Assembly (NCBI GenBank): GCA_029062885.1
Contig: JAIDPH010000280.1
Location: 1 to 35,944, forward strand
Length of the DNA: 35,944 nucleotides
Direction of reading: 5' to 3'
DNA from: Lachnospiraceae bacterium
Lineage (GTDB): Bacteria > Bacillota > Clostridia > Lachnospirales > Lachnospiraceae
Shown here: one piece after another, positions 5,695 to 22,955 of the stretch
Layout of the letters: each line of letters begins with the position of its first letter
How positions within the stretch are numbered: position 1 is the stretch's first letter
Notes under the pieces: model-generated
The model's database searches: none
Seen by the model: the letters and a program-made list of their open reading frames with translations, nothing else
Told to the model about the DNA's origin: nothing
Program-made: the position numbers and the translations under genes

Positions 5695-7545
5695 ATGGCT
5701 TCCCAGAAGTTTGAAAATCTGCTGAATCTGGCATTGGAAACTCCGATGGATGAGCGTGACAAATCATTGGAATTGAATATTGGTTATGAACAAGAGGACA
5801 ATACCTGGGAGATTATCATAAAATATCATGGCAATCTGCAACAAGGACTGTCCTCTCTTTTGGCTCTGCCACGAGGAAGATTAATACAGATAGAGGAGTT
5901 GATAGCGGGATATGCTATTTTGATTGTGCCCGAGTCTTTGATGGATGCTGTGGCGGCGGTAGAAGAAGTTGAATATATAGAGAAACCTAAGCGGCTTTTT
6001 TTTGATATTCTGCAAGGGAAAACCGCATCATGTATTTTGACTGGAAACTCTGTTGTCTCATCACTGCGGGGGCAGGGGGTTTTAGTGGCGGTAATTGACT
6101 CCGGGATTTCATGGCGTAACAGGGATTTCAGAAATGCGGACGGAACGAGCAGAATCCTCTTTCTATGGGATCAGACATTGCAGGCTGAGCGGGTATGGGA
6201 ACAGATTGCAATGAGAAATCTGCTTCCGGAAGAAAGAAAAGAAGACTATGCACCACCTGCCGGTTTCCTGACAGGAGTAGAATTTGACAGAGCGCAGATT
6301 AATGAAGCGTTGAATGCCTCTTCGGAGATTGATGGAAATCTGTTGGTTCCAAGTGTAGATACATCGGGGCATGGAACAGCGGTGGCAGGCATAGCGGCGG
6401 GAAGCGGAGAAGGCTATGGAAGCGTCTATGAAGGTGTTGCTCCGCAAAGCGAGTTAATCATTGTGAAGCTTGGAACTCCCAGAGCAAATTCGTTTCCGAG
6501 GACGACAGAGCTAATGCGTGCCTTAACCTATGTAGTCAGAAAATCTTTGGATTTACGCCGACCTATTTCTATAAACTTAAGTTTTGGCAATACCTACGGT
6601 GCACATAACGGCACTTCGCTGTTGGAGAGATTTATTGATAATGTTTCGGAGATAGGCAGGAGCGTCATCTGTGTGGGAAGCGGTAATGAGGGAGCATCCG
6701 GCGGGCATGCGGGAGGCAGTACGGTAGGAGAAGCGCAGGCAATTGTGGAACTGGTGGTAGGAAATTATGAAACAGGGCTGAATGTCCAGCTCTGGAAAGA
6801 TTACGCAGATATCTATAATGTTAGGTTAAAATCTCCTAACGGGGAAGAGTTTAATATAAATACCGGCAGAGCTGGTAAACAGACCTTTATTTTAGAGCAG
6901 ACAAGGATCCTTTTATATAATGGTGAACCAGCGCCATACATGACCAGTCAGGAAATTTATTTCGATTTTCTTCCGAGGGGAAACGGAAGATATATTAACA
7001 GCGGCGTATGGACATTTGTTTTGGAACCCGTCAAAACAGTGACCGGCAATTATACTCTGTACCTTCCTTCCGAAACTGTGCGCTCAGGGCAGACTCGATT
7101 CGTCAGACCTACGCCGGATATAACATTAACTATTCCGTCCACAGCCTCAAAAGTAATTACAGTGGGGGCTTATGAGACTCAGCTGGAGGCATATGCGGAT
7201 TTTTCAGGCAGGGGATATCTATATCAGGACAGACTTGGCAGCCGCATCGACGGTTCTTTAGTAAAGCCGGATATTACTGCTCCGGGAGTCAACATTTTAG
7301 CGCCGACCAGAGAAGGAACATATGCCCCTGTAACAGGAACTTCATTTGCCACGCCGTTTGTCACGGGAGCGGCAGCGCTGTTGATGCAGTGGGGAATTGT
7401 AAATGGCAACGATCCATATCTTTATGGTGAAAAGGTAAAGGCATATTTACGGAGCGGCGCAAAACCGATAAGGGGAGAAAAAGTATATCCTAATGAGAGA
7501 GTTGGATACGGAGCGCTGTGTGTCAGTGCGAGTTTGCCAGAGTAA
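5695..7545 (+). CDS. Subtilisin-like serine protease, Csp-like (S8)
   Basis: A 616-residue S8 peptidase of the type found in Clostridia and related to the Csp germination proteases. The complete catalytic triad is visible: Asp in AVIDSG (D135), His in SGHGTAVAG (H226) and Ser in GTSFATP (S550), with the oxyanion Asn in GSGNEG around residue 330. The long insertion between His and Ser (roughly residues 350-480) forms a beta-rich domain, as in Csp proteins. There is no signal peptide; the first ~110 residues look like a propeptide. In Clostridium difficile CspB cuts pro-SleC while CspA and CspC are pseudoproteases; this copy keeps its triad, so an active protease is predicted. Its true substrate is not deducible, and no cortex hydrolase gene is next to it. 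The start is supported by AAAGGAG 5 nt upstream. Confidence 0.9.
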   Translation: MASQKFENLLNLALETPMDERDKSLELNIGYEQEDNTWEIIIKYHGNLQQGLSSLLALPRGRLIQIEELIAGYAILIVPESLMDAVAAVEEVEYIEKPKRLFFDILQGKTASCILTGNSVVSSLRGQGVLVAVIDSGISWRNRDFRNADGTSRILFLWDQTLQAERVWEQIAMRNLLPEERKEDYAPPAGFLTGVEFDRAQINEALNASSEIDGNLLVPSVDTSGHGTAVAGIAAGSGEGYGSVYEGVAPQSELIIVKLGTPRANSFPRTTELMRALTYVVRKSLDLRRPISINLSFGNTYGAHNGTSLLERFIDNVSEIGRSVICVGSGNEGASGGHAGGSTVGEAQAIVELVVGNYETGLNVQLWKDYADIYNVRLKSPNGEEFNINTGRAGKQTFILEQTRILLYNGEPAPYMTSQEIYFDFLPRGNGRYINSGVWTFVLEPVKTVTGNYTLYLPSETVRSGQTRFVRPTPDITLTIPSTASKVITVGAYETQLEAYADFSGRGYLYQDRLGSRIDGSLVKPDITAPGVNILAPTREGTYAPVTGTSFATPFVTGAAALLMQWGIVNGNDPYLYGEKVKAYLRSGAKPIRGEKVYPNERVGYGALCVSASLPE

Positions 7546-7592: not shown

Positions 7593-7622
7593 ATTTACTT
7601 AAATAAAAGAAAGTGTTATGAT
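7593..7622 (+). promoter_or_regulatory. Possible promoter of the recombinase-like/RhuM/methyltransferase-nuclease cassette
   Basis: A TTTACT (7593-7598) and TATGAT (7617-7622) pair is separated by 18 bp, upstream of the first cassette gene. The -10 is a good match and the -35 a moderate one. It would give a leader of ~40 nt before the ATG at 7670. Confidence 0.35.
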
Positions 7623-7669
7623 GACAATGAAACAAAGGAAATATTGCGTTTGTGGTTCTGGAGGTACAA

Positions 7670-8602
7670 ATGAATCAGAAATTGAGGGAAACTATAGACG
7701 ATTACTATAAAACAATAAAGGAGATTCGTCCTAATTACAGAACATGTTACAATAGCTTTTTAGATTATTGTGATTCATACTATTCACAGTATTCTCTAAA
7801 AGAATTATTTAAAGAGCATCTTGATATTCTCGATATAAAAAAAGCGTGCAGACTTTATATTGAAAAAAGCAAGAAGGCCACGTCCATAGAAGCGGTTCAG
7901 CGTTTTTTGACGGCGATGGATTTTTTTTACAGATATTTGAAAGAGAATGACATTATATGTGAAAGTTTGGAGACCGGATGCAGAAGAAAAGAAATTGTGC
8001 ATGATATTTGTGTTAATTTGAATAATGAATTGGAGCAGAAAATATATCTTCCTTTTGATGGAGAACAGGAACTGAAGATAGTAGATGAGCAGATAGCGCT
8101 CTTACGCAATCAAAATTTTTATCAATTGGGTCAATCTATTATCTATCGGCTTTTGGTAACATATGGCTTTAAGGAAAAAGTAGTTATAAATTTCAAACGA
8201 TGCGATTTTGACAGAAAGAAAGGTAATCTGCTGGTGAATTACAATGGTGAGAACAGTATATATATAAATCTACCTGAAGACATCTGTCAAGACTTAGAGG
8301 AATATTGTACCTTAAATATGTATGAAGATAGAATATGTTTGTTTACAAAAAGTAATGGAACTCCGTTGACCCCTGACAGTATGTTAGGTACGTTAAAAAG
8401 CAGGCTGAAAAAAATGAACATCACTAATTTTACGCCAACTACAGTGGCATTGTATGGGGTAGCTAATTTGATTGAGAGAGGATTGACATTGGGAGAAATA
8501 AAGCTTTTGACAGGTTTTGAAACGCAGAAGATAGAAGACGTTTCACAATATTTATTGACAGATGAAAATGTTGACGAAGTAATAAATGAGAAAATCAAGT
8601 GA
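7670..8602 (+). CDS. Tyrosine-recombinase-like protein lacking most catalytic residues
   Basis: A 310-residue protein with the two-domain layout of phage integrases: an N-terminal SAM-like helical domain (about 1-105) and a C-terminal catalytic-fold domain (about 120-300). The C-terminal half aligns by eye to XerC/D-type enzymes, but key residues are replaced. The Arg I region LLYGTGLR appears as LLVTYGFK. The beta-hairpin lysine region reads NYNGENSIYINLP. The HxLRH box (normally TPHTLRHTFATHLLERG) reads TPTTVALYGVANLIERG. The GH box reads GFET. A tyrosine remains near the C-terminus in SQYLL. Strand exchange is therefore unlikely, and a DNA-binding or structural role is inferred. The start has GGAGG 5 nt upstream (7660-7664). 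The next gene follows after 13 bp, so it probably opens a three-gene operon. Confidence 0.75.
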   Translation: MNQKLRETIDDYYKTIKEIRPNYRTCYNSFLDYCDSYYSQYSLKELFKEHLDILDIKKACRLYIEKSKKATSIEAVQRFLTAMDFFYRYLKENDIICESLETGCRRKEIVHDICVNLNNELEQKIYLPFDGEQELKIVDEQIALLRNQNFYQLGQSIIYRLLVTYGFKEKVVINFKRCDFDRKKGNLLVNYNGENSIYINLPEDICQDLEEYCTLNMYEDRICLFTKSNGTPLTPDSMLGTLKSRLKKMNITNFTPTTVALYGVANLIERGLTLGEIKLLTGFETQKIEDVSQYLLTDENVDEVINEKIK

Positions 8603-8615
8603 AGGAAGAAAAATA

Positions 8616-9611
8616 ATGCCCAACTCAAATATACTAATGTATACGACAGAAGATGGATTAACTAAGATAGAAGCTACCTTTGAAGATGATACGGTCTGGT
8701 TGTCTATTGATCAGATGGCAGATCTGTTTCAACGTGATAGAAGCGTTATAGGAAAGCATGTTAGAAATATATTTAAAGAAGGCGAATTAGAAAAAAATGC
8801 AGTGTGGGCAAAATTTGCCTACACTGCTTCTGATGGAAAGGATTATGAGGTCGATTTTTATAATTTGGATGTAATTATTTCTGTTGGTTATCGTGTGAAA
8901 TCTTTGCGTGGTACACAATTTAGAATATGGTCATTGAACATTTTGAAAGAATATATGAAAAAAGGTTTTGCTCTTGATGATAGCAGGTTAAAAAGGCTGG
9001 GTGGAGGTAATTACTTTGATGAACTGCTTGCAAGAATCAGGGACATTCGTTCATCAGAAAAGGTGTTTTGGAGAAAGGTTCTGGAAATATATTCTACCAG
9101 TATAGATTATGATCCAAATGCAGAAGAGTCGATTGCTTTCTTCAAACAGGTACAAAATAAAATGCATTGGGCAGCCCATAAGCATACAGCAGCAGAAGTA
9201 GTATTTCAACGTGCTGATGCGGAAAAAGAAAATATGGGATTAACTTCATGGGAAGGAAAAAGAATTAAAAAGTCTGATTCTGAAATTGCAAAGAATTATT
9301 TGAATGAACAGGAATTGGATGCATTAAACAAAATAGTGACAGCCTATTTGGATATTGCGGAAGTGCAGGCTCTTAATCATGAGCCAATGTATATGCGAGA
9401 CTGGCTGGAAACAATTGATGATTATTTGAAATTGACAAGAAGGGAAATTCTTACAACGAAAGGACAGGTTTCACATAAACAAGCGATAGAGAAAGCACAT
9501 ATGGAGTATGATAAATATAAGAAAAAACAGGAAGAATTACTTTCTCCTGTGGAACAGGATTTTATGAATAGCATTGCGAGACTGGAACAGATAGATAAGA
9601 GTAATAAGTAA
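8616..9611 (+). CDS. RhuM family protein
   Basis: A 331-residue member of the RhuM (Virulence_RhuM) family, first named from a Salmonella pathogenicity island gene but widespread and often found in restriction-modification and mobile loci. Visible hallmarks are the N-terminal VWLSIDQMADLFQRDRSVIGKHVRNIF segment, which looks like a winged-helix DNA-binding module, the SVGYRVKSLRGTQFRIW stretch, and the C-terminal helical region with FFKQVQNKMHWAAHKHTAAE and MRDWLETIDDYLKL. Its biochemical function is not established. The start at 8616 has GGAAGAA upstream and is preferred over the in-frame codon at 8586, which would overlap the upstream gene. It sits between the recombinase-like gene (13 bp gap) and the methyltransferase-nuclease gene (23 bp gap), so a shared role is likely. 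Confidence 0.88.
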   Translation: MPNSNILMYTTEDGLTKIEATFEDDTVWLSIDQMADLFQRDRSVIGKHVRNIFKEGELEKNAVWAKFAYTASDGKDYEVDFYNLDVIISVGYRVKSLRGTQFRIWSLNILKEYMKKGFALDDSRLKRLGGGNYFDELLARIRDIRSSEKVFWRKVLEIYSTSIDYDPNAEESIAFFKQVQNKMHWAAHKHTAAEVVFQRADAEKENMGLTSWEGKRIKKSDSEIAKNYLNEQELDALNKIVTAYLDIAEVQALNHEPMYMRDWLETIDDYLKLTRREILTTKGQVSHKQAIEKAHMEYDKYKKKQEELLSPVEQDFMNSIARLEQIDKSNK

Positions 9612-9634
9612 ACTGCAGATGCATAATTGATGGG

Positions 9635-11152
9635 ATGAAATATATGGAACAACAATTTAGTATTATAGATGTTTTTTGTGGAATAGGTGGTATGTCAAAA
9701 GGTTTTTTGGATGCAGGATACCGGATAAAGGAAGCCATAGATTTAGACAAAGAAAAAGTAAGCATTTATAATAATATATTTGGAGAGAATATTGCAAAAT
9801 GCCAGGATTTATGTTTTATGAATCCAAGTGAAATCAGAGATGCTGATATAATTGTCGGCAGAATACTATTGAATGGTTTTAATATCGTAGGGCAAAAGAG
9901 AGGAGAAGATCATCATCCGCTTAATAAGCATATGATAAATCTTGTGTATGAAAAGAAACCAAAAGCAATTGTGTTGGAAGTTGTTGGGTTAGGAATAAAT
10001 AACATGTATAAGATATGTGATTGCTATGCAAATATGGGTTATCATATATATTATAAAAGACTGGCAGGACAAAGTTATTCAGGACTTCCATTTTATGATG
10101 TTAGGACATATGTTGTTGGAATCAGAAAAGATTTAGATAATAGAGAGTTTTATTTTCCAGAAGCACGTTACGATGAGAATGATATGGACGGGAGAGGCTA
10201 TTTATTTGAAAAAAGTGTGGATCCATGGTACAGAGAAATTAATAAAATTGAGAATTATGAGTTTGAAGAAAAAAAGATTTATGTTCGTAAAATGAATAAA
10301 CTATATGAATCAAATTTGATCATGAATGGATGTCTATTTGAAAACTTTCTATGTGATAGTGAGGGGCTGAGAAGATGTACACATGTAGAAATGGCACGAT
10401 TAAAAGGATTGGCATTATATGAATATAATAATTATAAAAATAAAAGGCTGATGTATCGTTATATATCGCAGGCAACGAATGCAATTGTTGTTTCATATAT
10501 TGCCAAAGCTTTAAGAGATTATTTGAGTGGGGAAGATGTTGTTGGCGATACAACCTATTTTTCGAAAGGACAATTGGTTGTTAAAAGGGATATGAAGCCT
10601 TTGGTAAAGGGCATCCAAAAAGAAAAAAATAATTCAGAGGATAAAATGGATGAGGATTGTCCAAGGGATGAATGGGATGAGTTGATAGAAGCTGTTGGTA
10701 AAGAAGCAATAAATAATTTTGAACACGGAAAGTCATTGGAAAAATTGATGTTAAAATTCTTTTCTGAAGTAGAAGGATTTCAGTGCCAGCCTAATGCAAG
10801 AACAGAAACAGAAGAAATAGATATATGGATTCTCAATAAGTCAAAAGACGAGTTATTTGTGAAAGAGAGTAACCTGATTTTGTGTGAATGTAAGAATTGT
10901 GAGCGAAAGGTTAGTCGTCAGGAATTAAATGTATTTATTGAAAAAATGAAAAACAGGAATGGAAGATGCAAATTGGGATTTTTTATTGCATGGAATGGAG
11001 TTACAGGTGATTTTGAAAACGAACTATTGAGAATTACGCGTGACGAGGAAGTTGTTGTTCTTTTGACAAAAGAAGGGATTATCGCCACAATAAAGTCAGG
11101 GAATGTAGCGAAATATTTGCAAGATGAATATTCAAAAGCATTATTAAGGTAA
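9635..11152 (+). CDS. Catalytically degenerate C5-cytosine methyltransferase fused to an Mrr-like nuclease
   Basis: A 505-residue two-domain protein. Residues ~8-310 follow the motif order of C5-cytosine DNA methyltransferases: motif I IIDVFCGIGGMSKGF (SAM site), motif II around AIDLDKE, motif VI with E115 (LEVV in place of ENV), motif VIII as GLPFYDVRTYVVGIR (normally GxPQxRxR), motif IX as CTHVEMARLKGL, and motif X as SQATNAIVVSYIAKAL. Motif IV, normally PCQ with the catalytic Cys, reads ILLNGFNIVGQKRG; Leu79 occupies the Cys position. Residues ~355-490 form an Mrr-like PD-(D/E)xK nuclease domain with GKSLEKL (E369), EEIDIW (D396) and CECKN (E418, K420) all present. Methylation is therefore unlikely while DNA cleavage looks possible. 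The start could also be 9644. It is the third gene of a tight cassette. Confidence 0.85.
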   Translation: MKYMEQQFSIIDVFCGIGGMSKGFLDAGYRIKEAIDLDKEKVSIYNNIFGENIAKCQDLCFMNPSEIRDADIIVGRILLNGFNIVGQKRGEDHHPLNKHMINLVYEKKPKAIVLEVVGLGINNMYKICDCYANMGYHIYYKRLAGQSYSGLPFYDVRTYVVGIRKDLDNREFYFPEARYDENDMDGRGYLFEKSVDPWYREINKIENYEFEEKKIYVRKMNKLYESNLIMNGCLFENFLCDSEGLRRCTHVEMARLKGLALYEYNNYKNKRLMYRYISQATNAIVVSYIAKALRDYLSGEDVVGDTTYFSKGQLVVKRDMKPLVKGIQKEKNNSEDKMDEDCPRDEWDELIEAVGKEAINNFEHGKSLEKLMLKFFSEVEGFQCQPNARTETEEIDIWILNKSKDELFVKESNLILCECKNCERKVSRQELNVFIEKMKNRNGRCKLGFFIAWNGVTGDFENELLRITRDEEVVVLLTKEGIIATIKSGNVAKYLQDEYSKALLR

Positions 11153-11264: not shown

Positions 11265-11338
11265 TAATCTGACAAGATATAGTAAACGATATAATCGGCA
11301 ATAAAGCAAGCTGGCAGGAAGGAATAATTACAACCGTC

Positions 11339-12718
11339 ATGAAAACCTTATTTGATATTCTACCAGCCGATTTTTTTAAGCCGCTGACAAGTAAATACCG
11401 GCAGGAGTATGCAGATTGCATTATGCAGCTTTTCAATACCTTCAAACCGGAAATTTCCTATGGCGTGAATCGGGACATCGTAGTCAGGGAATTGACGGAC
11501 TACTTTGAAGCTGATGATACAGAGATGAGTTTTGATGATGAGGTCTATGTATCCGATGCGAGGGAGAAGGCAAACGGAGTCATAGCCATATTGAAGAAGT
11601 GCGGCTGGATAGAATACGAGCAGGAGACGAATCACCAGATTAATGTAATTTTGTGTGAATATGCGATTCCTGTGATTGATAGCATGAATCGCATCATTCG
11701 GGAGGAAGAGGCGGAGTATCAGGGAATTATATCGCAGATTCATGCGAGTTTACAGAACGAGGAATTGTACGGTAAACCTTATGAATTGATTATTAAGGGT
11801 GTACAGGAGAATACAGAACGTCTTTTATCAGAGTTAAAGAAGCTGAATGCCAGCATTAAGCGGCACATGGATCAGCAGACGAATGATATGGATGCGGAAG
11901 AAATCTTAGATCACTTCTTTGAGTATCACAAGAATATCGGATCAAAGGCATATCTGAGAATGAAGACCAGTGAGAACATTTCTTATTTTCGGACAGCGAT
12001 CATAGAGCGTATTGAGCGGATAATGGAAAGCACAGAGATCATGGAGCGGGCGACGGCAGGTTACATGGAGGTGGAGGAGATTGAGGATCGGGAGAAGGCA
12101 TATGATGAGGTAATCTCCATGCTGATTGACATTAAGTCCTCCTTCTATCGTTTGGATGATATCATAGATGAAATTGACAGAAAGCATGCGCGATATATTC
12201 GCAGCGCGGTGATGCGGGCGCGGTTTCTGCTGGCAACCGGCAATAATCTGGAAGGGAAGCTGTCCAAAATAATGGATTTGTATGTGCGGCAGATGAACAA
12301 CGAAGAGGAAGAATCCTTTGAGAGGCTGTTCTCCCTGTATCCGCAAAACTATATTTCACCGGAATCGCTACAGACAATTCCAGTCACTAAGAAAATAGAC
12401 ACAATTAGCGGATTCTCGAATCAGGTGCAGATGAGTGAGTCGGACAGGCTATTGTATAAAGAAGCGCTCAAGCGAAAGAACCGAAACCGCTTTTCCCGCA
12501 AGAATATCAATGAGTATGTTGTAAATTTGTTAGGAGACAGGGATAAGATGTCGGTTACGGAGGTGCCGGTGGAATCCGTCAGGGATTTGATTCGGATTAT
12601 CTATATCAGTATCTATTCCGGTAACCGATCCAATAATTATGAAATCATCCGAAGCGGAAAACAAGTGGAGATGCAGGGATATTCGCTGCCATATTTTGAT
12701 ATTGTTAAGAAGAGATAG
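11339..12718 (+). CDS. jetA: Wadjet protein JetA
   Basis: A 459-residue protein at the head of a jetABCD operon. The N-terminus (MKTLFDILPADFFKPLTSKYRQEY) and the overall length match the JetA/DUF5716 type of Wadjet systems. In Wadjet, JetA is the kleisin-like (MukF-like) subunit that bridges the JetC heads and binds JetB. Visible are an N-terminal winged-helix-like region (about 1-110), long helical segments (about 120-300, including IIDEIDRKHARYIRS) and a C-terminal helical/winged region. The ATG at 11339 has no close ribosome binding site (AGGAAGG is 16 nt upstream), but family similarity starts right there. The jetB gene follows after 75 bp. The type assignment (probably type II, from JetA and JetB appearance) is by recognition and not verified. 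Confidence 0.85.
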   Translation: MKTLFDILPADFFKPLTSKYRQEYADCIMQLFNTFKPEISYGVNRDIVVRELTDYFEADDTEMSFDDEVYVSDAREKANGVIAILKKCGWIEYEQETNHQINVILCEYAIPVIDSMNRIIREEEAEYQGIISQIHASLQNEELYGKPYELIIKGVQENTERLLSELKKLNASIKRHMDQQTNDMDAEEILDHFFEYHKNIGSKAYLRMKTSENISYFRTAIIERIERIMESTEIMERATAGYMEVEEIEDREKAYDEVISMLIDIKSSFYRLDDIIDEIDRKHARYIRSAVMRARFLLATGNNLEGKLSKIMDLYVRQMNNEEEESFERLFSLYPQNYISPESLQTIPVTKKIDTISGFSNQVQMSESDRLLYKEALKRKNRNRFSRKNINEYVVNLLGDRDKMSVTEVPVESVRDLIRIIYISIYSGNRSNNYEIIRSGKQVEMQGYSLPYFDIVKKR

Positions 12719-12793
12719 AGCTATAATATATTTAAGAGTTTTTTAGCATGATTTTGAAAAATAAATCTTCATGAAAGTATAAAGGATTCACAT

Positions 12794-13435
12794 ATGTTTG
12801 AAGAATTAATGGAATCCGCCGCACAGAAAGAGAAATTCCGTGTCGCGGCTAACAAACTGTTAAATCAATGCTTTCTGCTACGGAAGCGGGAGGACACGAA
12901 GAAAGAATATATTTTCGTAAGACAGAATCGGGAATTGTTCATTCCATTTTTCGACCTGCTGGGGTACGAACTGAAAATCAATGAGGATCAGGGGGTGATC
13001 GGCATTGTGAACCAATTCGGGACGGGGAGGCTGGCACTTGGCAAATATGAGAGTGTCTATCTGCTGATTCTCCGTATTCTGTATGTGGAAAAGCGTAAGG
13101 AATTGGGAACTTTCACAGAGGAAGTGACTGTTCTCATGGAAGAGATCAGAGAGAAGTATGCGATGCTTAAGATTAAGGCGAAACCGTTGTTGGACAAGGG
13201 GAATGAGCGGCATATGGCCAGTTTGTTCCGCAGATATAACCTGATTCGTAATCTGGACAGTGACGTAAGCCAGCCGGATGCTAGGATTATTATCTATCCA
13301 TCGATTCTCATGGCGGTGACGGTGGAGGATATCAATGAGTATTATACGATGACGGAACAGAAACTGAGGGAGTATTCCGGAGGGAACGCAGATGGAGACT
13401 CAGAAGAAGATTATGACCAGAGTGCAGTTGATTAA
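12794..13435 (+). CDS. jetB: Wadjet protein JetB
   Basis: A 213-residue protein between jetA and jetC, of the size and position of JetB, the MukE-like/KITE subunit that binds the JetA kleisin in the Wadjet condensin complex. The sequence shows two winged-helix-like blocks: residues ~10-95, ending in LALGKYESVYLLILRILYVEKR, and ~100-190, with HMASLFRRYNLIRNL and ARIIIYPSILMAVTVEDI. Its end overlaps the start of jetC by 44 bp, indicating translational coupling. The start has AAGG about 8 nt upstream. The identification rests mainly on the operon plus KITE-like appearance (DUF4194/DUF6063 type). Confidence 0.85.
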   Translation: MFEELMESAAQKEKFRVAANKLLNQCFLLRKREDTKKEYIFVRQNRELFIPFFDLLGYELKINEDQGVIGIVNQFGTGRLALGKYESVYLLILRILYVEKRKELGTFTEEVTVLMEEIREKYAMLKIKAKPLLDKGNERHMASLFRRYNLIRNLDSDVSQPDARIIIYPSILMAVTVEDINEYYTMTEQKLREYSGGNADGDSEEDYDQSAVD

Positions 13436-16400
13436 CTGGCACTACTTTGAGAATGAGAGAATATCCTTTCATGGTTCGACGTTGAACAGCGGAGAGAATA
13501 CTGCCGGAAAATCCACCATACTGGATGCCATACAGCTGGTGCTGACAACGAACACACGCAGGTTCAACGTGGCGGCCAATGAGAAAGGAAAGAGAGATTT
13601 AAGAGGATATGTCCGCTGTAAGATCGGCAATGTGGGTGAGGCATATCTTCGAAAGGGTGCAGTGCCGGCCAATGTGGCGCTGGAATTTTATGAGGAAAAG
13701 GGAGACCGTTACTTTGTGCTGGGCGTACATATGCTTTCCAGAGACGAGGAGAGCCCGGTCATAACAAGATGGTATATTGAGGAATGCAGGCTGGAAGAAC
13801 TTTCTTTCATGGCAGGAGAGCGTGCCGCATTGGCGGAGGAATTTCGGGCGAAGGATAGTAAGATTTCATATATAGACCAGAAAAATGCGGCGCAAGATCG
13901 GTTTAAAAGACGTCTTGGGAATTTAGATGATAAATTTTTTGACATTATTCCAAAATCTCTGGCTTTTAAGCCGATGGACAATGTGAAGGAGTTTATCAAT
14001 AAATTTGTCTTGTCGGAAGAACGGGTGGATGTGGCTTCACTGCGGGAGAATATAGAGACACTGAGTGAGTTGGAGCATATATTGGAGCGTTCCAGAAGGC
14101 AGCAGGACGCATTGGAGAGAATTCTCGGTAAGTATGATGAGATAGAAGAGAAGGACAGAAGTATCCTTATCAACGATATTCTGCTTAAAATTGCGAATCG
14201 GGATGCCGTGCAGATGAATGTGGAGAACCTGGAGAAAGAGATCAGGATTAAGAGTCATTCAGTGGAGTCTAACCGCGGATTTCTGGAAGAATTAGGGAAG
14301 CAGATCAAGGATCTGGAGAATCAGATATTGGCGATTAATGTAGACATAGAAGCGACGCATTCCAATGCTCTTTTGCAGCAGGCCAGGAGCCGGATAGAGA
14401 AACTGGAGGATGAAATCCGCCGGAAGAAGGAGGACGAAAGGAAACTGCAGGAACAGGTTCGTCTTTTGATGGATTATCTGAGGGATTTGGAAAGACTGGA
14501 TTATAAGCCTGTAAAGCGAAAACAGGCAGAGCAGATAGGCGAGGCGGCGGATCAGGAGGAAAAGGCGAAGACGGTTGAGAAACTGGAAGCATTCGCCGCA
14601 AAGGAACAAAATGAGATTCAGAAAACCTGGGCACTCCTTACTGCAGACATGAACAGACTTTCCGGAGAGATAAATGAATGCCAGGAACGGCTGAAGAAAT
14701 TGAAAAAGAGAGTGCTTCCCTATCCGGAATATTCGAGGAAACTGAAAGAGATGGTGGAGAAGGAGTTTGTACGCAGGGGGATTCATTCCACGGTCTATTT
14801 CCTTTCGGAATTGTTGGAAATTACGGATGTGAAGTGGAGCAATGCCATAGAGGGATATCTTAATACGCAGAAATTCTATCTGGTTGTGGAGCCGGAATAT
14901 TATCATGTGGCATTGGAGGTTTATGATAAAAACCGTAAAAACATACATACAGCAGGTATCATTAACAGCCGTAAGCTTCCCACAGAGCAGGAGGCAGAGC
15001 AGGATTCTCTCGCCTATGTGGTGAAAAGCGATAACCGATACGCCAAGTCATATGCGAATTATATACTGGGAAGAGTGAAATGCTGCATAGATGTCCATGA
15101 ACTGGAACAGCATTCCATTGCCATGACGCCTGAGTGTATGCTCTATCAGGGATATGTGGTCAGACATTTGAATCCCAGGGACTATGAGAATCCCTTTATC
15201 GGACAGTATGCTTACAGGACGCAGATAGAGAATGTGAAGAAAGAGATTGAGGAAAAGACGAGAAGACGGAGCGAACTCAGGCAGGAAATCCAACTGTATA
15301 CAGCAGTTCAGGAAAGTGCGAAGAAGGTAAGTCTGGAAATCGTGAAGTTGTACCTGTATGTGCCGGAACGTTTAAATAGACTTCAGGAACAAATGATATC
15401 AGCAAAGGCAGAATTAGAAGAGGCAGCAAGCGACCCTACACTGATCGAACTGAAGCTGAAACTGGAGGCTAAAGAGAAAGATCGTGACGAAAAAAGAGCA
15501 GAGGAAAAAAGCCTCAACAATGAAAACATGCGCTTGGAGAATCAGATCGGTAATCACAGAAATGATATGCAGGAACGAAAAAAAGAGTATGACAGCCTGC
15601 GGACGGAACTGGAAGAGCAAGCGGACAGGGATGGTGCAGTCTACAATGAGGCGGAAGACAAGTACAGGCAGAATCGAAAGAGCAAGAGCGCACAGGTCAT
15701 TGCAGTGAATTATGCGCCTCAGAAGTCGCAGCTTCTGCGTGAGCGGGAGGAACTGCTGGACGGCAAGTCGGGTCTGAAAGAGCTGCAGATGAGATTCAAT
15801 CAGGAATTTACTCTTGATTTTGTGATGGGGCTTACGGGTATTTCAGAATATCGGGAGGCTCTGCAGAAGCTTAAGAGCGTGGAAATCGTGAGGTACGAAG
15901 AAAAGCTGAAGCTTGCCAAAGAGGATTGCGAACAGATTTTCCGGAGTGATTTTCTTTCCAGGATGAAAGAAAATATTGAGAGCGCGAAGAATGAATTCCG
16001 CAGCTTGAACAAGGCATTGGACAGTATTTATTATGGAGACGACAGCTACCGGTTTAAAATCAGTTTCGACAAGAATAAGGAAGGACTGTACAGGATGATT
16101 ACCTCAGAGAATAATTACGAGGGCATTAATCTCTGGACCAGCGCTTTCGAGGAAGAATACAGGGAGGAAATGGCCGATCTTTTTGACAAGCTGATGGCAA
16201 AGGACGATAATGGTCAGAAGATTGTGGAGGAATACACAGATTATCGTTCTTATCTGGATTATGATATTGAAATACATAAGCGGGACGGTTCGATACAGCG
16301 CTTTTCTGACATTTACGGAGAAAAAAGCGGCAGTGAGACACAGGTGCCTTATTATGTGGCAATTGCAGCTTCTTTTTATCAGTTATATCGATACGGGAAC

Positions 16401-16610
16401 AGTATCAGGATCATGCTGCTGGATGAGGCCTTTGATAAGATGGATGATGAACGCATTCAGTCCATGATGGAGTTTTTCAATGGATTAGGGCTGCAGGTTA
16501 TTTTGGCGACGCCGCCGGCGAAGATTGAGGTAATCGGTGAGCAGGTTGGAACGGTTCTGACTGCGATTCGTGTGGGGTCAAACAGTATTGTGGAGGAATA
16601 TGATCTGTGA
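13392..16610 (+). CDS. jetC: Wadjet protein JetC, SMC-like ATPase
   Basis: A 1072-residue SMC/MukB-like ATPase, the loop-extruding motor of the Wadjet complex. The N-terminal head has Walker A GENTAGKST (residues 34-42). Long coiled coils run from ~240 to ~430 and ~630 to ~920, separated by a hinge-like globular region around residues 450-600. The C-terminal head carries the signature region SGSETQVPYYVAIAASF (from S979) and Walker B IRIMLLDEAFDKMDDERI (D1011, E1012), followed by ILATPP. All ATPase residues needed for head engagement are present. GGAGGG lies 7 nt before the ATG, inside the end of jetB. The stop codon overlaps the jetD start (TGATG). Confidence 0.93.
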   Translation: METQKKIMTRVQLINWHYFENERISFHGSTLNSGENTAGKSTILDAIQLVLTTNTRRFNVAANEKGKRDLRGYVRCKIGNVGEAYLRKGAVPANVALEFYEEKGDRYFVLGVHMLSRDEESPVITRWYIEECRLEELSFMAGERAALAEEFRAKDSKISYIDQKNAAQDRFKRRLGNLDDKFFDIIPKSLAFKPMDNVKEFINKFVLSEERVDVASLRENIETLSELEHILERSRRQQDALERILGKYDEIEEKDRSILINDILLKIANRDAVQMNVENLEKEIRIKSHSVESNRGFLEELGKQIKDLENQILAINVDIEATHSNALLQQARSRIEKLEDEIRRKKEDERKLQEQVRLLMDYLRDLERLDYKPVKRKQAEQIGEAADQEEKAKTVEKLEAFAAKEQNEIQKTWALLTADMNRLSGEINECQERLKKLKKRVLPYPEYSRKLKEMVEKEFVRRGIHSTVYFLSELLEITDVKWSNAIEGYLNTQKFYLVVEPEYYHVALEVYDKNRKNIHTAGIINSRKLPTEQEAEQDSLAYVVKSDNRYAKSYANYILGRVKCCIDVHELEQHSIAMTPECMLYQGYVVRHLNPRDYENPFIGQYAYRTQIENVKKEIEEKTRRRSELRQEIQLYTAVQESAKKVSLEIVKLYLYVPERLNRLQEQMISAKAELEEAASDPTLIELKLKLEAKEKDRDEKRAEEKSLNNENMRLENQIGNHRNDMQERKKEYDSLRTELEEQADRDGAVYNEAEDKYRQNRKSKSAQVIAVNYAPQKSQLLREREELLDGKSGLKELQMRFNQEFTLDFVMGLTGISEYREALQKLKSVEIVRYEEKLKLAKEDCEQIFRSDFLSRMKENIESAKNEFRSLNKALDSIYYGDDSYRFKISFDKNKEGLYRMITSENNYEGINLWTSAFEEEYREEMADLFDKLMAKDDNGQKIVEEYTDYRSYLDYDIEIHKRDGSIQRFSDIYGEKSGSETQVPYYVAIAASFYQLYRYGNSIRIMLLDEAFDKMDDERIQSMMEFFNGLGLQVILATPPAKIEVIGEQVGTVLTAIRVGSNSIVEEYDL

Positions 16611-17863
16611 TGGACAGGCTGCAGAGGAAAATGTTGGAACATCTTTTGGATTCCTATGAGAGGAGCCGGACATTCCGGGGAGACAATCAGGTAAGACAAA
16701 GCTTTTCCGTTAGTGTCGGAAAGATTTTCCCCAAATATAATGATGATGCGGAGTATGAGTATTTCTGTCAGATTAATGAGTCAATCGAGGAGTTGTGTGC
16801 CGAGGGGATGGTTATACCGGAGTATCGGAAAAAGGGTGTGCTGAAGAAGGTCACACTCAATCCGGACCAGTTGGATGTCTGCTATGAAATGTTGGGAAGG
16901 ATGCCAAAAAGGCGAGAGCAGGAAGAGCTTGTGCGAATATGGGATGTTCTCTGTCAAGGTGACGAGCCCTGCCGGCAGAACCAATCCGGTCAAGAACATT
17001 GGCTTCCGTTAGTTAAGTATATTGCGGCTCAACGGCTCAGGGTTGAAAAAAATCTAAATGTGGAATATTACAATCATGACTTGGAAGAATATCGCGAACT
17101 GCTTCTGGCAGTAAAAGCGGTTCTGGAGAATCAGGAGGAGATATTTATCCGTAACTTTTCCATACAGATGTTCCACGACTCCAAAAGAATGGGGCAGCTA
17201 AAGCACAAGGTAGAGGCTTTACTGTATCAGTATGGAGAATACCAGGAGCGTGACTGTGTACTGGAGGAATGCGGAATTGTCAATACGCCGACTTATGTGA
17301 TGATGAAAGGAAACGGGAGTATAAGGATCGGAAGAGATGAGCAGGAGATTGATTTGTCCCTGATGGAAGGTGATATTGCGCTGTCTACGGAATCGGTCAA
17401 GAGTCTGAAAGACGTTACGGTCATGGGGAAGCGTGTGGTCACGGTGGAGAATCTTACCAGTTTTCATGATTATTCAGCGGAGGATGATTTTGTCGTTTAT
17501 CTGGGCGGATTCCACAATAAGGTAAAAAGAGACTTCATCCTATATCTATATCAACGGAATCCTGAGAAAGAATACCGACATTTCGGAGATATCGACGCCG
17601 GAGGCTTTTACATTCTGGAGCATTTAAAGAAAAAGACAGGGATTCCGTTTCGGTCATTGTATATGGATACGAGGACGCTTCAGAGATATCGCGGGGACAG
17701 AAAGCCATTGACCGACAATGACAGAAAAAGGCTCCTTCAATTAAAGGAGGAGCTGACAGAGCGGATGCAGCATGAAGAAACGGAGGATTATGGCGATGTA
17801 ATTTCGTACATGCTTGATGAGAACTGTAAGCTGGAACAGGAAGCAGTCCGTTTGTGGGATTGA
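16610..17863 (+). CDS. jetD: Wadjet protein JetD, Toprim nuclease subunit
   Basis: A 417-residue JetD, the nuclease subunit that cuts circular plasmid DNA after JetABC loop extrusion. The N-terminal ~250 residues are the winged-helix/arm region. The C-terminal domain is Toprim-like (DUF2220, related to topoisomerase VI A), with the Toprim glutamate in VVTVENLTSFH (E280) and the metal-binding pair in FGDIDAGGFYI (D327, D329). The ATG at 16610 overlaps the jetC stop; a GTG at 16607, closer to GGAGG at 16592-16596, is an alternative. It ends the operon; an AT-rich inverted repeat follows. Confidence 0.92.
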   Translation: MDRLQRKMLEHLLDSYERSRTFRGDNQVRQSFSVSVGKIFPKYNDDAEYEYFCQINESIEELCAEGMVIPEYRKKGVLKKVTLNPDQLDVCYEMLGRMPKRREQEELVRIWDVLCQGDEPCRQNQSGQEHWLPLVKYIAAQRLRVEKNLNVEYYNHDLEEYRELLLAVKAVLENQEEIFIRNFSIQMFHDSKRMGQLKHKVEALLYQYGEYQERDCVLEECGIVNTPTYVMMKGNGSIRIGRDEQEIDLSLMEGDIALSTESVKSLKDVTVMGKRVVTVENLTSFHDYSAEDDFVVYLGGFHNKVKRDFILYLYQRNPEKEYRHFGDIDAGGFYILEHLKKKTGIPFRSLYMDTRTLQRYRGDRKPLTDNDRKRLLQLKEELTERMQHEETEDYGDVISYMLDENCKLEQEAVRLWD

Positions 17864-20792: not shown

Positions 20793-22955
20793 ATGAATAA
20801 AAATAAATATAAATATAAATTATTGTCATGCGCTGTGTTGTTCAGCTTGCTTCTTTGCGCATGTGGAAAGGGGATGGAGCCGCTGCAGGAAAATGCCGCA
20901 ACGCTGTCTGAAACCGTGGAAGAAAAGACAGAAACGAAAGGAACAACAGAAACAGGAAAAATTACTACCGGGGATGAAGCAGCAACAATATCGGACTTAT
21001 CTGAAGCTGAGAATGCCGACGAAACTCTGGCGCTGCTCATAGAAGATGAAGGTTTTAGAGAACGCGTGCGCTATGGGATTGGCATTGTAGAAGAGGACTC
21101 ACCGGAAATGGTTTTACAAAAACTGAAAAACTGCGAGAGTATAGTGTTGGAAGAAGCACCATATGGTAATGCGATTTATTCGCTTAAGTCTTTGTCGCTT
21201 CTTCCAAATTTGAAACACCTTGTTGTTGATATAGATGAATGGGATGATTCCGATATTACGGATTTTACGCCCATTGCACAGCTATCCCAACTGGAAGAGC
21301 TTTATATCAACTACGAAAAGGACGAGTGCATCGACCTTTCCTTTCTGGGTGAGATGCATACAATTACAGGGCTTTTCCTGACACGATGTACAATAACGGA
21401 CTTCTCGTTTTTAGGAGAATTGTCGCAGTTGCAGCGCTTGTCTCTGTATGAAACTCCTATTGATGATTTGGCGGTATTGGAGAAGCTACCGGAACTGGTT
21501 GAACTGGCACTTTCCGGCAATGAAAATGCAAAGAACATTGAGGCAGTGGGTACACTCACAAAAATGCAGGATTTGGGAATACAGTATTGCGGTATTGTGG
21601 ATATCAGCTTTTTGAGCGGATTGACGGAGCTTCGGGGTGTGAACCTGAACGGCAATTCTGTCACGGACATTACGCCTCTTGCGGGCCTTAACAAATTGGA
21701 GCGTCTGGGCTTATCCGAAAACAGAATCAGCGATATCTCGGCACTTGAAAATCTAAGTAATCTGTTTGATTTAGCACTGGATGGAAATGAGATTCGGGAT
21801 ATTTCTGCCCTTGCGCAGCTTTCGCATCTCAATCAGGTTGGAATTTCGGATAATCTTATTGAAGATTTGACGCCGCTTGCGGGAAAGGAAGAGCTGATGT
21901 ATGCCGCGGTATTTGGCAATCCGATAAAAAGCCTGGAGCCGCTCTTTGAAGTTCCGATGCTTATGCATACGGATTATACGGATAGAGGCGCATCGGATGA
22001 GGAAAAGACATTTGTAGCGGACTGGCTTGCAGAGCATTATCCTGAGGCGGAAGAGTTTAGATGCGTTGATTTTATCCAGGGAGACTTAAACAATGACGGG
22101 CGGCAGGATATCGCTTTTGTGGTTGACAGTGATGCTTTTGATTCGCATGAGAGCGATTATTATGAGGATCGCCGTTTGTTTATTTTGTTGCAGCAAAATG
22201 ATGGCTCATGGGCGGAACAGGCGCACACGCTGCGGATTGGCAGCGCCCAGAGCGGCGGGATGAGGGGAGACCCTTATTATGGCGCTTTTATGCAGGCCGG
22301 TTATTTGTTGATAAAAGTGGGATGGGGAAGCAGTTCAGGTACAGTACAGACGAATATCTATGAATACCGTAACGGAAGTATTAGTTTTGCGAAGGGTGTA
22401 AGCGTCGGCGATTACAATTACGCGGAGGGTTATGATGTGCGGATTCAAAACGAGCAGGATGACACATGGCAAAGCTATGTCATTGCCATGGACGGGTACC
22501 GCATGGTTCGTGTGGATTTAGCGGATTCAGAGCATTTGATGCATAAGGCGTTCCCAGAAATCAGCATATTTCATATGTCCTATTATATTTATGATCATAA
22601 AATAGAGTCACAAATTACTTCCGGAGAAGCGCTTGACCGTGTCCTCAAAGTGGCAGTAGAGGATGAAGCTTCGGCAGTTCAGGAAAAGCTGCCTTATGCC
22701 GAATGGCAGAAGGAAGGGTACGAGCTTTTACTGGCTGTGACGCTTCCGGATTATTATTATGTCATGCCTGAAACAAAAAGGGAGGCAGACGGCGAGTCGA
22801 CAGAATGGGAAGGTGATTATCTTTATTATGATGGTGTGATATGGAAGAACGGAAGTCTTTACCATAGGGTCTGCCTCGTAATTGATTTGGGGCAGAAGTC
22901 GGAAGAAAGAGAATTTCTGTTAGATGATGCTACGGGAGAGATAAAGGAGGAATGA
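20793..22955 (+). CDS. Leucine-rich-repeat lipoprotein with FG-GAP-like segment
   Basis: A 720-residue lipoprotein with lipobox LLCAC followed by a Thr/Glu-rich linker. Residues ~115-400 hold about ten SDS22/internalin-type leucine-rich repeats of ~22 residues (for example LNKLERLGLSENRISDISAL and LSNLFDLALDGNEIRDISAL). Next comes FIQGDLNNDGRQDIAFVVDSD, a calcium-binding-like FG-GAP/dockerin-type loop, then ~280 residues of unrecognised beta-rich sequence. Such proteins usually mediate protein contacts on the cell surface. GGAG lies ~10 nt before the ATG. It follows another large lipoprotein gene after 91 bp; the two may be expressed together. Confidence 0.88.
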   Translation: MNKNKYKYKLLSCAVLFSLLLCACGKGMEPLQENAATLSETVEEKTETKGTTETGKITTGDEAATISDLSEAENADETLALLIEDEGFRERVRYGIGIVEEDSPEMVLQKLKNCESIVLEEAPYGNAIYSLKSLSLLPNLKHLVVDIDEWDDSDITDFTPIAQLSQLEELYINYEKDECIDLSFLGEMHTITGLFLTRCTITDFSFLGELSQLQRLSLYETPIDDLAVLEKLPELVELALSGNENAKNIEAVGTLTKMQDLGIQYCGIVDISFLSGLTELRGVNLNGNSVTDITPLAGLNKLERLGLSENRISDISALENLSNLFDLALDGNEIRDISALAQLSHLNQVGISDNLIEDLTPLAGKEELMYAAVFGNPIKSLEPLFEVPMLMHTDYTDRGASDEEKTFVADWLAEHYPEAEEFRCVDFIQGDLNNDGRQDIAFVVDSDAFDSHESDYYEDRRLFILLQQNDGSWAEQAHTLRIGSAQSGGMRGDPYYGAFMQAGYLLIKVGWGSSSGTVQTNIYEYRNGSISFAKGVSVGDYNYAEGYDVRIQNEQDDTWQSYVIAMDGYRMVRVDLADSEHLMHKAFPEISIFHMSYYIYDHKIESQITSGEALDRVLKVAVEDEASAVQEKLPYAEWQKEGYELLLAVTLPDYYYVMPETKREADGESTEWEGDYLYYDGVIWKNGSLYHRVCLVIDLGQKSEEREFLLDDATGEIKEE

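Follow-up and report, generated by a model that had tools for sequence, protein, structure and literature searches.

Several described systems resemble parts of the locus reported here, positions 7670-11152 of a 35,944-nucleotide contig of a Lachnospiraceae bacterium (JAIDPH010000280.1, assembly GCA_029062885.1; this whole stretch is called the window), which encodes a recombinase-fold protein (gene 1), a RhuM protein (gene 2), and a C5-methyltransferase fold joined to a nuclease domain (gene 3). MrpR (YopR) of prophage SPbeta is a DNA-binding repressor that has the tyrosine-recombinase fold, lacks recombinase activity, and keeps K169 and Y304, and SroF of phi3T is, judging by its PDB titles, a repressor seen bound to DNA. 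Both share the tyrosine-recombinase fold with the gene 1 protein, and MrpR, like it, lacks catalysis; however, these are phage repressors and MrpR retains K169 and Y304, whereas gene 1 differs at all six catalytic positions and stands at the front of short, putative defence operons. BrxR/CapW and RptR, as presented in the parts of the sources consulted, are regulators that head defence systems, as gene 1 appears to do, but BrxR/CapW has a WYL helix-turn-helix architecture and RptR a small helical fold. RhuM has been proposed, in the sections consulted, as a toxin linked to restriction-modification (R-M) loci and DOC domains (Anantharaman et al. 2013; PMC3710099). Those sections place RhuM beside R-M and PrrC genes and in fusions with DOC, which resembles its position next to a restriction-type gene here, but they name no dead methyltransferase-nuclease or recombinase-like head gene. 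Mrr and type IV restriction enzymes, like gene 3, join a Mrr_cat PD-(D/E)xK domain to a putative DNA-recognition part; in gene 3, however, that part is a C5-methyltransferase fold, and any specificity for modified DNA is hypothetical. Type II R-M systems with a C5 methyltransferase also combine a C5 fold and a nuclease in one locus, but the present cassette has no catalytic cysteine and its genome no other C5 methyltransferase over the cut-off.

The open reading frames (ORFs) bear out the arrangement given by an initial annotation made from the sequence alone: three genes on one strand (+), with gaps of 13 bp between genes 1 and 2 and 23 bp between genes 2 and 3. Gene 1 (7670-8602) starts with ATG and encodes 310 amino acids, or 316 from an alternative GTG at 7652; gene 2 (8616-9611) encodes 331 amino acids and would run into gene 1 if started from an ATG further upstream, at 8586; gene 3 (9635-11152) encodes 505 amino acids. 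We read the locus, with a confidence that stands about midway, as a compact defence cassette in which gene 1 serves as a built-in switch for the effectors, genes 2 and 3. The defence role is suggested by homology to PADLOC candidates.

The recombinase-fold head gene and the genes behind it

The gene 1 protein (7670-8602, +) has the tyrosine-recombinase fold, has lost all catalytic residues, and is a probable repressor, as judged from alignment, Foldseek, and the ratio of nonsynonymous to synonymous substitution rates (dN/dS). It falls below the Pfam cut-off for phage integrase (PF00589, E 0.0064) and matches XerA in NCBIfam (E 8.4e-13). At the six positions that we take, from general knowledge of the family, to be catalytic, and which were placed with XerD controls, the window protein has K, N, T, A, F, and S, as against R, K, H, R, H, and Y in XerD. 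None of the six residues of an active tyrosine recombinase (R-K-H-R-H/W-Y) is kept in any of 21 aligned gene 1-like sequences. The controls were ordinary XerD-type recombinases, which made up five of the eight genomes matched by the search that also supplied G102 and G276. With a family dN/dS of ~0.1, the loss of catalysis looks ancestral and the fold preserved, and the view of the initial annotation that this fold was kept while its catalysis was lost holds up. In Foldseek, the 39 top rows for the gene 1 model all have the tyrosine-recombinase fold and the next row has an E value of 0.23, for a low-confidence model with TM-scores of 0.2-0.3.

The likeness to MrpR and SroF is at the level of the fold only (first five rows of VIA-align). 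A profile search of PDB sequences with gene 1 did not return 8A0A at E <= 1, and a tblastn search of phages at E <= 10 gave no SPbeta-type record among 20 matches, which were chance-level rows (best E 0.3). Neither gene 1 nor two of its distant relatives matched the plasmid collection, and viral contigs yielded one gene 1 relative (L084; loci and genomes are given by L and G numbers).

To survey what follows gene 1, a pattern scan of 84,980 species genomes (11 loci), a viral contig (L084), a profile search of 397 genomes of the family (nine genomes, that of the window included), and the added genomes G102 and G276 were pooled, which after removal of repeats left 22 loci. Removed before counting were L085 (on the contig of L084), L210 and L219 (the neighbourhood of L183), and the shorter duplicates L031-L033 and L211-L218. 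In 18 of the 22, the next gene lies on the same strand at most 146 bp away and is of a defence or toxin type, and seven kinds occur. A HipA-like kinase follows on the same strand in eight loci, an AAA_15/PD-T4-4_A-like ATPase in two (one truncated), and Schlafen-AlbA_2 in two; for each of these kinds one representative was scanned, and the remaining members were assigned by sequence likeness. RhuM follows in three loci (window, L184, and L226), and single loci carry a PLD-helicase with DUF3427 of the type IV helicase kind (L039), an NgoPII restriction enzyme accompanied by a live methyltransferase (L040), and SIR2 (L223). The other four loci are L224, L225, L177, which has HipA remnants upstream, and L220, where PDC-S02 and Mrr_cat genes precede gene 1. 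Six of the seven cargo kinds match PADLOC at E <= 1e-20, the exception being Schlafen-AlbA_2 (best 4e-7), as compared to none of ten control neighbours, three of which had weak matches.

In six loci (L084, L176, L178, L180, L182, and L183), the HipA-like kinase has the pseudo-recombinase before it in place of a HipB-type partner, and after it a conserved protein of ~71 amino acids; in L176 the kinase is PDC-M03A and the small protein had no Pfam match.

The initial annotation had the recombinase-like protein read DNA for the nuclease of gene 3. This part of its proposal finds no support, because members of the gene 1 family also stand before six other kinds of cargo; the protein looks like a regulator. 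An operon-head repressor is the best reading, since the phage repressors MrpR and SroF have the same fold, and gene 1 is thus best explained as a regulator of whatever it heads, with a role by analogy like that of BrxR/CapW or RptR and a fold like that of MrpR. Among the matches listed in a search of open-licence papers, we found no recombinase-fold regulator of defence operons besides the phage repressor MrpR. Recombinase-like proteins in defence islands may then be regulators, and the gene 1 family, standing before seven cargo kinds, is a set in which this can be tested.

In the proposed mechanism, the gene 1 protein would bind the promoter before it as a repressor, as MrpR does at its targets, and would keep expression of the effectors down until the repression is lifted by infection or by the entry of DNA. 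A probable sigma-A promoter, TTTACT-N17-TATGAT, is predicted at 7594-7622 (+), and behind its -10 box a 22-bp element with CAAT...ATTG ends (7625-7646, +) is a candidate operator. Of 12 close loci, 11 have a TTTAC(T/A)-N16/17-TATAAT-like promoter and a 22-bp element ahead of gene 1. The promoter and operator evidence is suggestive, because the patterns were defined after viewing the sequences, the 12 loci are kin, and single-locus palindromes mostly fall within shuffles: only in three of 14 loci (L174, L178, and L182) do five or fewer of 100 shuffles reach the palindromes 5' of gene 1.

RhuM and the pseudo-methyltransferase-nuclease

The gene 2 protein is RhuM by Pfam (PF13310, E 1.7e-108, 362 bits against a cut-off of 33.7) and PDC-S05 by PADLOC (E 1.3e-172). 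The initial annotation let RhuM regulate the complex, for which nothing in the analysis speaks; as part of the whole cassette reading, and with the same middling confidence, we take it to be an effector, a suspected toxin, with the 505-residue protein as the nuclease effector. The latter carries a Mrr-type PD-(D/E)xK domain (10727-11026, +; PF04471, Mrr_cat, E 3.4e-6) in which E369, D396, E418, and K420 are intact, as the initial annotation had it. The Mrr_cat residues E, D, and (E/Q)xK are retained in all eight aligned nucleases, the window's included.

The first part of the protein is a pseudo-C5-methyltransferase (9635-10600, +; Pfam match 9656-10513) by Pfam, alignment, and tree. It scores 79.5 bits against PF00145 (C5 DNA methylase; E 4.1e-22, cut-off 22) and has lost the motifs of active C5 enzymes, with LLN at the PCQ position of motif IV (residues 78-80) and EVV in place of ENV in motif VI. 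The names and positions of these motifs are those we assume from general knowledge of the family. The motif I glycines G16-G18, D58, and N282, which in this family lie in the S-adenosylmethionine (SAM) pocket, are invariant in four aligned rows.

Of 299 genomes searched within the family, 94 gave matches; the best 30 loci were read, with more than 90 weaker places outside that reading. Besides the window, motif IV lacks PC in only three genomes among these loci, G147 (L003/L044), G268 (L004/L042), and G201 (L008/L043); L002 matches gene 3 through its nuclease only. The initial annotation had named, as a finding that would refute it, homologues that normally carry PCQ, and on this the result is mixed: the two best-scoring methyltransferase matches, G147 and G268, and the fusion in G201 lack it, but the live enzymes of G053, G091, and G224 come close behind these two and outscore that of G201. 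A larger set of 397 genomes, which overlaps the 299, yielded 24 loci and no further dead C5-methyltransferase; its large score gap is in part an effect of the profile, which had been derived from the dead rows. From 391 genomes of the class, 30 loci were read: the match is a live enzyme in 29, with two secondary ORFs unassigned by the pattern used, and the thirtieth is the window. The genus of G268 adds G679 (L167), also without PCQ, and gene 3 of L184, a broken version of that in the window, lacks it as well.

The members without PCQ thus number six (window, G147, G268, G201, G679, and L184), five of them intact and in five genomes. Absence of PCQ was the criterion by which the six were selected, and the unity of the group rests on the tree, in which, with 72 rows, the five intact members form one branch (support 100/97) apart from the 67 others; branches are long and the inner order is weak. 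The loss of PCQ in this lineage looks ancestral, and here too the annotated loss of catalysis in a kept fold stands. The interval between motifs VIII and IX measures 78-91 residues in the five dead rows of the alignment and exceeds 91 in 64 of the 67 others (median 113), which implies a small target-recognition part and makes it less likely that the protein reads sequence precisely. Between G268 and G679 (L042/L167), dN/dS is 0.33 for the methyltransferase part as compared to 0.06 for the PDC-M59A part to which it is joined, a contrast that would suit a rapidly evolving recognition role for the former.

In the genome of the window (96.7% complete, 6.7% contamination), no other PF00145 protein exceeds the cut-off; other methyltransferase classes were not searched. 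The 505-residue protein matches 132 plasmid and 42 phage records, none of which covers 80% of it, and no relative of it was found in viral contigs; scanned with an alignment of the pseudo-methyltransferase, these contigs gave 116 loci, of which 80 were retained and motif IV was not read. The literature search described above listed no dead C5-methyltransferase-nuclease.

A sensor of DNA binding, of modified DNA, or of SAM state would all fit these features. In the mechanism that we propose, the C5 fold, with its SAM-pocket residues kept and methylation lost, would aim or gate the nuclease, so that cutting would be governed by what the fold binds (modified or non-host DNA, or SAM state) rather than by a competition between methylating and cutting. 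A lineage of conserved, dead C5-methyltransferases joined to nucleases would uncouple the recognition of DNA from its modification and could offer a means of restriction without self-methylation.

Fusion of a dead methyltransferase with Mrr_cat occurs in the window and in G201, the sole other such fusion read. The G201 protein (L043, 3690-5612) carries, besides the dead C5-methyltransferase and Mrr_cat, a second nuclease-like part that matches PDC-M36A. In G268 (L042, 7287-9641) the dead C5-methyltransferase is joined to a PDC-M59A domain by PADLOC, and G147 (L044, 1-2267) and G679 (L167) align to this fusion across the full 646-position profile. These proteins are not called RhuM fusions because a profile comparison of RhuM with PDC-M59A was not significant (probability 0.3%, with shallow profiles), and homology of the two was rejected. 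A stand-alone nuclease of 172 amino acids in G253 (L083, 3047-3562), 51% identical to the window's nuclease domain, lies near a helix-turn-helix protein and a gene resembling a phage tail-sheath gene.

The three genes are found together in only one other genome, a Roseburia metagenome-assembled genome (L184, 8001-10052), where genes 1 and 3 are broken and RhuM is intact. The copy has the identical gene order, with 96% identity over 1,621 bp, from the end of gene 1 through RhuM into the start of gene 3, and 93-94% over two shorter pieces; dN/dS between the two RhuM genes is 0.05. The co-occurrence of all three genes, for which the initial annotation proposed a test, is therefore weak, being confined to the window and a decayed copy, and the refuting outcome named there, a lack of conserved co-occurrence, partly holds, although the pair of gene 1 and RhuM recurs in L226 with a very distant gene 1. 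L226-type gene 1 was found in 200 genomes of the family only in G031 itself and in G131. An alternative, possible though rather unlikely in our judgment, is that two independent modules adjoin here, a unit of gene 1 and RhuM and then an unrelated orphan pseudo-methyltransferase-nuclease. It would account for L226, where the pair is followed by other chromosomal-looking genes, for the stretches read in G147, G268, and G201, where the pseudo-methyltransferase has neither gene 1 nor RhuM beside it, and for the intact RhuM of L184 between two broken genes. However, only 23 bp separate genes 2 and 3 on one strand, L184 holds all three in order, and the pseudo-methyltransferase is followed by a Fic/DOC-type gene in G268 (PF02661) and, by eye, in G147, DOC being a domain to which RhuM is often fused in the sections of PMC3710099 consulted.

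Subtilase 3' ends as candidate integration sites

Upstream of gene 1 in the window lies a Csp-type subtilase gene (5695-7545, +; PF18425 prodomain and PF00082). A subtilase is also the upstream gene in L184, L174, L175, L176, L179, L180, and L182; these are 45-60% identical to the window's, which alone was scanned with Pfam, the others being assigned by identity. L084, L178, and L181 retain a subtilase 3' end directly upstream, so that, counting the window, 11 of the 13 close loci have a subtilase or its end right before gene 1 (exceptions L177 and L183), and in a fourteenth, L220, a subtilase lies two genes further upstream.

In five of the 14 loci (L084, L174, L175, L176, and L180), a displaced subtilase end lies beyond the cargo, and in L176, L180, L084, and L175 this right-hand copy includes tail residues and the stop codon. 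The paired ends agree at 28 of 32 bases in L176 (7797-7828 and 14234-14265), 31 of 36 in L180 (7786-7821 and 10332-10367), and 29 of 36 in L084 (5786-5821 and 8362-8397), and longer displaced pieces occur in L175 (~9837-10001) and L174 (~11269-11310, E 4e-4). From their sequences, these displaced ends appear to be the signature of site-specific integration into subtilase genes. The window itself has no right-hand copy and no direct repeats around the cassette, and in the stretches examined of the distant relatives L039, L040, L221, L222, L223, and L226 there is no subtilase sequence. The cassette shared by the window and L184 starts 36 bp past the stop codon of subtilases that are only 47% identical, so that transfer of the near-identical cassette from genome to genome, into a site of the same type, is the most likely history.

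In L084, L175, and L181, elements whose genes by sequence likeness resemble those of large serine recombinases have their end at the same subtilase gene, and by eye their last bases are similar to those of the gene 1 cassettes, which suggests that large serine recombinases may move the cassettes in trans. The right ends at the subtilase junction share, mostly by eye, a ...ACTTGACA-like sequence that is also present in the serine-recombinase-like elements (L084 5756-5785 and 8332-8361; L180 10302-10331; L174 11244-11268; L175 9812-9836; L181 near 7590); only those of L174, L180, and L084 exceed shuffles.

This setting raises the question of whether the gene 1 protein is the relic of an integrase, or an accessory protein, of an element that integrates at subtilase 3' ends, binding DNA for mobility and not for transcription, an account that is compatible with the other readings and that we hold unlikely. 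The frequency of upstream subtilases, the displaced ends, and the near-identical cassette behind divergent subtilases speak for it; against it stand the absence of catalytic residues in all 21 family members, the missing right-hand copy in the window, the six distant relatives that precede defence-type genes with no subtilase sequence in the stretches examined, and the serine-recombinase-like proteins of L084, L175, and L181, which are better candidates for movement. With gene 1 as a regulator, a wider picture can be drawn, although only tentatively: gut Lachnospiraceae may carry small cassettes that integrate at subtilase 3' ends, possibly moved in trans by serine recombinases, with a pseudo-recombinase regulator at the head and swappable defence or toxin cargo, here a new type of effector in which a C5 fold, dead since its common ancestor, would sense the state of DNA or SAM and so gate a nuclease. 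If mobile, such cassettes would be a route for swapping defence genes among gut bacteria. A decayed R-M locus, finally, is very improbable: PCQ and ENV have been lost, decay is visible in the near copy of L184, and live C5-methyltransferases score near dead ones, but the intact members without PCQ form one branch, reading frames and nuclease residues are preserved, dN/dS is 0.33 for the pseudo-methyltransferase part of L042/L167 and ~0.1 for gene 1, and the genome has no partner C5 methyltransferase over the cut-off.

Base composition and neighbouring genes

The G+C fraction is 0.328, 0.351, and 0.321 in genes 1, 2, and 3 (32-35%), as compared to 0.462 in the subtilase, 0.430 in JetA, and 0.453 in JetC (43-46%). 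The cassette is indeed more A+T-rich than the Wadjet genes JetA and JetC, as annotated, but the dip is not unique, because the first 5 kb of the window also have only 34-39% G+C. The Wadjet operon, a complete type I jetABCD (11339-17863, +; JetA-JetD by Pfam and PADLOC), adjoins the cassette, which does not imply membership in it. Further along, a leucine-rich-repeat protein is encoded at 20793-22955, and its likeness to internalin is by repeat family only.

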